Below, one piece after another: positions 61,327 through 63,220 of a DNA stretch of 64,000 bases. The position numbers and the translations under genes are program-made. The first letter of the stretch is position 1. Every line of letters starts with the position of its first letter. Origin of the DNA: Lachnospiraceae bacterium (GTDB lineage: Bacteria > Bacillota > Clostridia > Lachnospirales > Lachnospiraceae); assembly GCA_017470985.1 (NCBI GenBank), contig JAFUXA010000010.1:1-64000 (forward strand), read 5' to 3'. The notes under the pieces were generated by a model. The model was not told the DNA's origin, did no database searches, and saw only the letters and a program-made list of their open reading frames with translations.

Positions 61327-61405
61327 TATTAGCTGATTAGAGCATAGCACTGAAAAGTGTAAATCGAATTACATATGGCAGTTGCTAAAACTACACATAA
61401 ATTTG

Positions 61406-61440
61406 GAGAGAACCTCAGGCGTTTCGCCTGGGGTTCTCTT
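61406..61440 (+). terminator. Strong terminator of the butyrate operon
   Basis: AGAGAACCTCAGGCG (61407-61421) pairs along its full length with CGCCTGGGGTTCTCT (61425-61439; one G-U) around a 3-nt loop. It is GC-rich and very stable, though the T tract after it is short. Confidence 0.85.
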
Positions 61441-61504
61441 CATTTGTTTTATTAGCCCAATTAAACTTTCAGGTGCAGATAGAAAGATCCAGAATATGAA
61501 TATC

Positions 61505-61921
61505 ATCTGTATCTGCATTACAGCCAACTCCTCAGATACAGATAAAAAGAATTGTTTCTTCTAAAACCTCCGCCGATTAAGAAAAGAACAACGAGAGAAT
61601 ACGGCTGTAAAGGATGGAATTAGGAATATTATCTGTATTTGCATCTTAGCCAACTCTTCGGATGCAGATAAAACAACAAAAAGCATAGATACTATCTGTA
61701 TTGGCAATCAACCAAACTCCATAGATACAGATATAATAGCTTAAATAATAAATACTATCTGTATTAGCAATTATCTAAACTCCTTAAATACAGATAAAAA
61801 GAATAGTTTCTTCTAAAACCTCCGCCAATTAAGAAAGGGACAATGAGAGAATACGGCTGTAAAGGATGGAATTAGGAATATCATCTGTATTTGCATCTCA
61901 GCCACCTCTTCAGATACAGAT
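61505..61921. repeat. Array of five 39-nt hairpins on a 63-bp lattice
   Basis: Hairpins at 61505-61543, 61631-61669, 61694-61732, 61757-61795 and 61883-61921. Each has 11-nt arms (5' ATCTGTATYTG-like, 3' CAGATACAGAT-like) and a loop of exactly 17 nt with a conserved centre (CA..., then CCAACTC or similar). Start-to-start distances are 126, 63, 63 and 126. Two spacers of 87 nt (61544-61630 and 61796-61882) are near-identical to each other, so the array holds a larger duplication. A worn half-unit lies at about 61462-61480. No long open frame covers the array. The stretch 61930-62142 is AT-rich with no gene and leads into the nuclease-like gene. Confidence 0.85.
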
Positions 61922-62142
61922 AATACACATAAAAACATAAAAATTAGTTGAAAAATCTTTTTAATGATGTTATAGATTAAGTGTCTTTTTTCATTTCAAT
62001 ATTAAGAATTCTGCGAATCTATAAAAACTATTTTGAATTTCATTTTTTTCATTTTGCAAATCCTATCAAAATCCAAATGTTTTAGTTATAAGTTAATCCG
62101 GCGTAAGCATTTAATATAAAAGTATGGAGAGGAGACAAATTA

Positions 62143-63048
62143 ATGGGCGAAAGAAAAATAATCAAGGAATCGACTGACAAAATATCAATAAGCAAAAGAA
62201 CGATTGACAGTAAATCAGCTGGTAATAAATCAGAGGCGTCAGTTTATTTAGAACCAGATAAAATATTGGATGTATTGAAACACAGAAAGGAGGAATTACA
62301 ATTCATTTATGACATTTTAGAAAAGAAAGCGTTGAATGAACCAGCGGGAGGCCTGCGAATTTCCAAGAAAGGAAATTCGTATCAATATTATTTTATAGAA
62401 AATGAGCAGGATACCATTGGAAAATATATATCGAAAAAACATATGAAACAAATCTGTGCATTAGCTCAAAAAGCATATAACAATAAATTGAGGAAGGAAG
62501 TGCTTCGTGAAATATATTTGATTGATACCATGATGAATAAATACAATCCTACTGCTATAGAAGAGATATTTGATAAATGCACACCGGGAAGGCAGGCTCT
62601 GATCGATCCGGTTTTTATGCCAAATGAAATATTTGCCCGTGAATGGCTTGGTGAGGAATATCAACATATGCTAATTGCTGAGGAAATGCCTTTCTTTGCG
62701 ACGAAACAAGGCGAAAAGGTTAGGTCGAAGACTGAAATGATAATTGCTGACAAGTTGTATGAACAGGGTGTGTTGTATAAATATGAATATCCATTGAAAT
62801 TAAAAAACGGAATAGAGGTTCATCCGGATTTCGTATGTTTGAATATGGCCACGCGAAAAGAGGTGGTTTGGGAGCATTTTGGAATGGTGGATAATTTTGA
62901 ATATGCAACTAATATGGTGAAAAAGATTAATAGTTACATTGCCAGTGGCTATGTGTGGGGAGAGACCTTTATAGCATCTTTTGAAGGGAGCAGATCGCCG
63001 ATTGATGTTAAATATATAGACAATATGATAAATATTTATCTGAAGTAA
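62143..63048 (+). CDS. Putative PD-(D/E)XK nuclease-like protein, 301 aa
   Basis: A helical N-terminal region (about 35-140, charged, coiled-coil-like) precedes a C-terminal domain with the pattern RSKTEMIIADKL (Glu198), HPDFV (Asp229) and EVVWEHFG (Glu240/Glu244), spaced as in PD-(D/E)XK-type nuclease folds. Related proteins of unknown function are common in Lachnospiraceae, as far as I recall. The catalytic Lys is not obvious, so activity is uncertain. GGAGAGGAG precedes the ATG. It stands alone, between the hairpin array and a 37-bp tandem repeat. Confidence 0.55.
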   Translation: MGERKIIKESTDKISISKRTIDSKSAGNKSEASVYLEPDKILDVLKHRKEELQFIYDILEKKALNEPAGGLRISKKGNSYQYYFIENEQDTIGKYISKKHMKQICALAQKAYNNKLRKEVLREIYLIDTMMNKYNPTAIEEIFDKCTPGRQALIDPVFMPNEIFAREWLGEEYQHMLIAEEMPFFATKQGEKVRSKTEMIIADKLYEQGVLYKYEYPLKLKNGIEVHPDFVCLNMATRKEVVWEHFGMVDNFEYATNMVKKINSYIASGYVWGETFIASFEGSRSPIDVKYIDNMINIYLK

Positions 63049-63122
63049 AATGAGATGATGGCTGGAATATTTCTCATATAAATGAAATGAGATAATGGCT
63101 GGAATATTTCTTATATAAAAGA
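63049..63122. repeat. 37-bp tandem repeat, two copies
   Basis: Copies at 63049-63085 and 63086-63122 share the block ATGGCTGGAATATTTCT and differ at a few positions. Each can form an ATGAGA/TCTCAT (or TCTTAT) hairpin, with the second copy's change keeping a G-U pair. It starts directly after the stop codon of the nuclease-like gene. Confidence 0.75.
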
Positions 63123-63220
63123 AATGTAAGGATAGGTGAACTATTATCTACAAATTTTTGCAGTGATAAATAAGGACACTTTTTTTAATTAAACAGGGAT
63201 ATTGAGGGTAATTAAAGGGG

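Follow-up and report, generated by a model that had tools for sequence, protein, structure and literature searches.

The array beside etfA and its copies in the genus

In the 64,000-nt stretch of DNA analysed here (the window), seven 63-bp units arranged head to tail were found between etfA and the gene of an orphan PD-(D/E)XK-type protein. The features of this region, all on the forward strand, are as follows:

61404-61442, +: intrinsic-terminator-like hairpin 3′ of etfA (simple scan), beyond which the array begins
61472-61482, +: leading right-arm element AGGTGCAGATA, ahead of the first full unit (read from the sequence)
61501-61945, +: array of seven head-to-tail 63-bp units (63-letter lines, register comparison)
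61496-61946, +: span of a 252-bp duplication, 61496-61694 against 61748-61946, 84% match
61505-61543, +: inverted repeat 1 (unit w0), 39 nt, with 11-nt arms and a 17-nt loop
61564-61626, +: unit w1, diverged and without the long hairpin, carrying the in-register right-arm element ATACGGCT
61631-61669, +: inverted repeat 2 (unit w2)
61694-61732, +: inverted repeat 3 (unit w3)
61757-61795, +: inverted repeat 4 (unit w4)
61816-61878, +: unit w5, diverged, a near-copy of w1 (59/63 letters)
61883-61921, +: inverted repeat 5 (unit w6)
62143-63048, +: gene for a 301-aa orphan PD-(D/E)XK-type protein, 200 bp 3′ of the array

The original prediction had described five 39-nt hairpins with 11-nt arms and a 17-nt loop, starting at 61505, 61631, 61694, 61757 and 61883 on a 63-bp register. 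Both the hairpins and the register were confirmed, and the two gap positions proved to be occupied by diverged units of the same 63-bp family. As had also been stated, no reading frame is open throughout the array, and the array is not a CRISPR, as sequence divergence runs along the units, loop segments resemble one another from unit to unit and unique spacers are absent. Inverted arms lie at unit positions 5-12 and 36-43 of the window array, with alternating spacings of ~31 and 32 bp. Because of the 252-bp, 84% duplication, the five hairpins do not represent five independent events. A simple scan of the window found no terminator between the array and the 62143 gene. Two copies of a 37-bp direct repeat, which are not an inverted-repeat array, lie at 63048-63126 right after the stop codon of this gene. 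Elsewhere in the window, positions 66-136 match the Rfam model of a group II catalytic intron (score 43.9 bits, threshold 40).

The stem changes had been called mostly compensatory. Across the five units, none of the 11 pairs varies on both sides (seven are invariant and four change on one side), RNAalifold predicted no pair on 14 units from two loci, and an imposed helix contained five pairs with a double change, a number that 161 of 500 shuffles reached; an RNA gene with compensatory stems was rejected on these results. The wider claim of a structured RNA under compensatory selection was not supported either: besides the lack of double changes and of a consensus fold, no Rfam match at curated thresholds was found in the window array or in 20 relatives' loci, and arm mismatches are strand-symmetric (see below). 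Folded singly as + strand RNA, the units at 61505 and 61883 (2/5) gave exactly the described hairpin, those at 61694 and 61757 (2/5) gave nine pairs and the one at 61631 (1/5) folded otherwise, with fold z-scores of -1.8 to -3.8 for the five window hairpins. Over the 11 pairs, these hairpins hold seven G.U cells and no A.C cell; this lean is the strongest remaining point for RNA, in hairpins that are copies of one another.

Copies elsewhere in the genome, a check that had been proposed, are present both in the window's own genome (G000) and in a congener (G001). A BLAST search revealed a second array place beside sfsA in G000, and the same place in the congener (contig JAGBNK010000036.1, Lachnospiraceae bacterium RGIG9274, water deer rumen) holds 5-6 units. 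A leading element of the AGGTGCAGATA type recurs with equal spacing at the sfsA locus. Between units of the etfA and sfsA arrays, a mean of 30.1 of 63 letters were equal in register, compared with 17.5 when shifted (highest shifted mean, 20.3). A sequence-only unit model (R2) was run on 397 family genomes and then, with more candidates scored, on three genomes of the genus. It added C30 and C19 near 88 kb in G000, and C16, C12, C4, C36 near 7 kb and C18 in G001, all read by eye in 63-letter lines. Altogether, the 63-bp framework occurs at ten places, four in G000 and six in G001. The etfA place of G001 (L075, G001:C34, 3′ of etfA) carries a further half unit, next to which, read by eye, a HEPN-type gene seems to end on the opposite strand. 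The arms, by place, are ATCTGTAT/ATACAGAT, ATCCGTAT/ATACGGAT and AGCCGTAT/ATACGGCT. Orthologous places differ in unit number, with seven units at C16 of G001 and about two and a half at C30 of G000. Furthermore, in the 842,883 bases of G000 and G001, 63 was the commonest self-similarity lag between 20 and 130 (8 hits; lag 126, 4 hits; lag 33, 5 hits), and three shuffles of these bases gave no lag hits.

Most of the arrays in these two genomes sit between ordinary genes, without the 62143-type gene. G001 has kept arrays but lacks any close 62143 homologue (31-36% protein identity at best) in an assembly that is 92% complete; the assemblies are drafts, and that of G000 is 88.8% complete. In a third congener (G002), no array was found at etfA or sfsA, and R2 matches were no better than E 0.04. 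Outside the genus, a BLAST search of the 397 family genomes with the window array gave single short matches, part of which were inspected and which were taken as background, and the best R2 match among the 12 candidates scored per genome (2.6e-4, in G108) was not an array. The pattern GTTTCTTCTAAAACCNCCG occurs in 10 stretches of the genome contigs, array-like only in the congener, and in none of the viral contigs.

A 21-aa repeat encoded on the minus strand was ruled out for the window by stops. In the G001:C16 array (L149 4410-4982), the minus strand is open for 190 aa with a 21-aa repeat, probably by chance, as other arrays contain stops. For three peptides translated from arrays, the best Pfam match reached only E 0.86.

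Shorter direct repeats also lie beside these arrays. Repeats of 33 bp with the 15-mer GCAAATCCCCGTTCA adjoin the sfsA array in both genomes (L002 1615-1700, G000:C19:62960-63040; L016, G001:C36:26160-26273), and others, 32-34 bp in length or roughly three turns of the helix, adjoin several 63-bp arrays (G000:C30 ~92427, G001:C16 ~12968, G000:C19 ~88504). The 15-mer is present in 12 of the 397 family genomes, and in G116, G070 and G132 it lies ~460-530 bp ahead of the start of a DUF4143/AAA match. The gene after the sfsA array (L084, L085) differs, encoding in G000 a NERD and zinc-ribbon protein and in G001, over two frames, one of AAA/DUF4143 type.

A protein family accompanied by arrays

The 62143 product has no Pfam match; of 150 sampled Lachnospiraceae genomes, 54 encode relatives. 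An alignment of 27 members shows invariant S-K-E, P-D-F and E-H-x-G residues, which presumably form a PD-(D/E)XK-type core, in which E, PD and E/D-x-K-like residues are conserved and the lysine position is occupied by H in all 27. These members share no Pfam family, and a profile search of solved structures returned no relative. Family members have ~240-470 aa as called, with one disrupted copy of 99 aa. All 27 match the PADLOC PDC-S68 models, and residues 182-297 of the window protein align to the C-terminal end of such a model; the C-terminal domain is shared with PDC-S68, whereas the PDC-S68 models span ~1,200 positions. A related domain was found at eight viral-contig loci, ending helicase-like proteins in the five of these that were inspected, and unlike the loci of the family, these eight have no array (lag measure at most 50/100). 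Outside Lachnospiraceae, in viral contigs, plasmids and phages, there was one near-full-length protein match, on a faecal 'Bacteriophage sp.' contig (MT839528), where no array was detected by the lag measure (best 56/100); degenerate inverted copies 3′ of the gene were seen there by eye only. The family data refer to Lachnospiraceae genomes.

The suggested check beside homologues of the 62143 gene proved decisive: arrays were found there too, but with arm sequences that differ from locus to locus, so a covariance or sequence search with the window units would miss them. By eye, the homologous loci show inverted repeats with locus-specific arms and periods near 53, 63, 74 or 86 bp, and in a lag scan of 95 loci of other genera, arrays of lag 62-64 occurred only at loci brought in by the 62143-type gene. 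We scored an array where at least 64 of 100 letters were equal at a lag of 40-130. The homologous loci numbered 48 (45 from other genera and three from this genus), being 28 best-per-genome loci, which are 30 minus the window (L087) and L094 (the same gene as L246), and 20 paralogue loci picked before their flanks were viewed. A tandem array was detected at 35 of these 48, an upper figure for the lag measure because the lag hits include sequences other than inverted-repeat arrays (a 6-bp repeat at L115; a 45-bp hit at L244; L260). The same measure was positive at 2 of 29 loci of DUF4143/AAA, another accessory gene that is common (Fisher p 6e-9), and in 2 of 100 pieces of 3.7 kb drawn at random from 20 other genera; an earlier, weaker control gave an array at 3 of 66 other loci. 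An inverted 7-mer test, which asks for two copies each way within 600 bp and is independent of lags, was positive at 37 of 49 loci (window included), compared with 17 of 200 random places and 4 of 29 control-gene loci (DUF4143), whose flanks were positioned by a set rule instead of from the gene ends.

Six loci failed both measures (L098, L102, L105, L109, L110 and L253). At L102, L105 and L109 the contig ends ~250 bp or less from the gene, and L110 and L253 have degenerate arrays by eye. L098 and L263, two of the 48 and both with DNA on either side, have no array by eye, L263 passing the 7-mer test alone. Twenty-six arrays lie 5′ of the gene, their median distance to the start codon being 25.5 bp (-56 to 271), and seven lie 3′ of it. 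Gene-free arrays were found elsewhere as well: one in G122, one in G075 (73 bp) and the majority of the ten of G000 and G001. The one in G122 is a second 62-bp array; its GCATC arms are related, and 6.5 kb separate it from the array at the gene. An identical terminator-like hairpin stands at the start of both G122 arrays (L104 1066-1091; G122:C7 near 116924), its arms having a GATGC core in common with those of the arrays.

Whole-turn periods and strand-neutral arms

The 63-bp period had been remarked on as a whole number of helical turns that places the units on one DNA face, and this remark turned out to be right across the whole family of arrays. Periods were taken from 39 array sides, of which seven were left out for also holding a repeat of less than 40 nt; a double-length lag was halved by rule in seven cases. 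The 32 periods fall at 52-54 (12), 57 (1), 62-64 (7), 73-75 (9), 85-86 (2) and 94 bp (1), so that all except the one of 57 lie at whole helical turns. When a common step was scanned from 8 to 14 bp, the best was 10.50 bp with a resultant R of 0.834, which was reached in 0 of 20,000 draws under each of two nulls (uniform and smoothed); when each genome contributed a single value per class (n=25), R was 0.79. Among the seven sides left out, 53, 62, 72 and 73 are near whole turns and 42, 57 and 59 are off.

Mapped on a 35-row protein tree, turn class (read by eye for L089 and L110, and by eye from the second lag for L112) required 12 changes, against 17.3 when shuffled, a value as low being obtained in 1 of 200. 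Supported clades comprise ten 5-turn members, four 7-turn members, and six members of which five have six turns and one has seven. Since turn class follows the protein tree, the period is inherited with the gene, yet shifts by whole turns. Arm similarity also follows protein identity (Mantel r 0.307, 0/10,000; 30 loci, arms picked by hand or by eye), a correlation that could stem from joint inheritance alone. No consistent split of the arm spacing within units emerged when a fixed one was sought across the arrays.

In 137 hairpins of 32 arrays, the arm mismatches on the gene's strand were 73 G.T and 70 A.C. By array, 15 lean to G.T and 12 to A.C, with five ties, and single arrays are lopsided either way (G.T to A.C, 14 to 1 in L088 and 2 to 13 in L250). 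An RNA hairpin should favour G.T, and the lack of strand bias therefore argues against RNA. Together, whole-turn spacing and strand symmetry favour in-phase protein-binding DNA sites over RNA hairpins, and it is the DNA-binding array, one of the readings offered originally, that gains support from them.

A candidate recognition array and competing explanations

We propose, with about even confidence, that the array, rather than being an RNA gene, is a recognition array of duplex-DNA sites for the PD-(D/E)XK-type product of the downstream 62143 gene. Two inverted half-sites would be presented per unit, and the units would be spaced by whole turns (six in the window, five to nine in relatives), so that bound copies would stand on one DNA face and be able to touch. 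We infer that the protein reads its own array because the inverted half-sites are in phase and near the start codon, and because the arms vary with the protein. Binding may be cooperative. It may repress the protein's own gene, the array end usually lying tens of bp from the start codon, and it may keep the nuclease in check, with protein and arms diverging jointly from locus to locus. More tentatively, these loci may form a new class, in which diversifying PD-(D/E)XK-type proteins each assemble as a one-faced chain on their own whole-turn array and are silenced or restrained there, for example as a defence effector on a DNA leash. The phasing yields a sharp prediction: a half-turn shift of a unit should break function and a whole-turn shift should not. 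An uncharacterised family of gut and rumen Lachnospiraceae, of which 27 scanned members have no Pfam family in common, thereby gains a consistent companion in the DNA, one that is physically distinctive, and becomes directly testable, each array being a candidate target sequence of its protein. No account of this arrangement or its parts was found among the titles and abstract openings of the literature searched, mostly open-access and exclusive of preprints, and a gene-plus-array DNA-binding system of this kind seems to be undescribed, its novelty being provisional.

The competing explanation that survives best, although we consider it unlikely, is selfish DNA resembling REP elements and their RAYT transposases, in which the nuclease would nick or cut the inverted repeats, expanding, copying and scattering the arrays; the gene would be the driver, and orphan arrays non-autonomous progeny. 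REP and BIME sequences are intergenic, regularly spaced inverted motifs of alternating orientation, located near the gene of a DNA-processing enzyme and also occurring as dispersed copies. The arrays resemble them in being inverted, alternating, regular and intergenic, in lying near a nuclease-like gene and in having dispersed copies; indeed, palindromes stand both beside the enzyme gene and scattered between genes, one arm family is dispersed without the gene in G000 and G001, the second G122 array has arms related to those of the gene-linked one, and unit number varies between orthologous places. The copies per genome are few, however, in the sequence searched and far below the usual number for REPs, and the model does not require the whole-turn periods of 52-94 bp that set these tandem arrays apart from BIMEs. 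Moreover, no match marks the protein as a Y1 (HUH) transposase; it has instead invariant residues of PD-(D/E)XK type and no shared Pfam family. REP/BIME elements with RAYT transposases are the subject of PMC2817692 and PMC8266576, and a GTAG or CGTC tag alongside the palindrome is a feature reported for such systems (PMC3733652).

We give little credence to a system like type III toxin-antitoxin loci, in which transcription of the array would yield a repetitive RNA acting as the antidote to a toxic nuclease. In ToxIN and its relatives, tandem repeats lie directly 5′ of the cognate nuclease-like toxin gene, and the 26 arrays 5′ of the family gene likewise consist of locus-specific repeats directly ahead of a nuclease-like gene to which they are cognate. 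That the RNA hairpins outfold shuffles and that the five window hairpins have a G.U bias would also fit. Against this, the units are longer (52-94 bp), their periods are quantised in helical turns, and mismatches are strand-symmetric in 32 arrays; seven arrays are 3′ of the gene and others are orphans. In a simple scan of three loci (the window, L095 and L104), no terminator was found to separate array from gene, 20 loci had no Rfam match, and no ToxN-type toxin was recognised by Pfam, with no match in the window protein and none shared by the 27 members.

Still less probable is it that the arrays are bound by a host factor, of the kind that binds BIMEs (gyrase or a nucleoid protein), and that the gene merely adjoins them. 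Helical phasing would fit any DNA-binding protein, and arrays that lie among ordinary genes, as in G000 and G001, would be expected, but the arrays are strongly specific for one gene family, and both arms and turn class track the protein. Arms also differ among paralogue loci of a single genome (G075), which one factor would not read.

Finally, a neutral minisatellite, that is, functionless local tandem duplication, is very improbable: the 252-bp duplication and the change of unit number between species are in keeping with it, and MIRU/VNTR loci are likewise intergenic tandem repeats whose unit number varies between relatives, but the arrays, though intergenic, tandem and variable in unit number, are tied to one gene family, have inverted arms and quantised whole-turn periods, and keep the 63-bp register between loci that share under half their letters.
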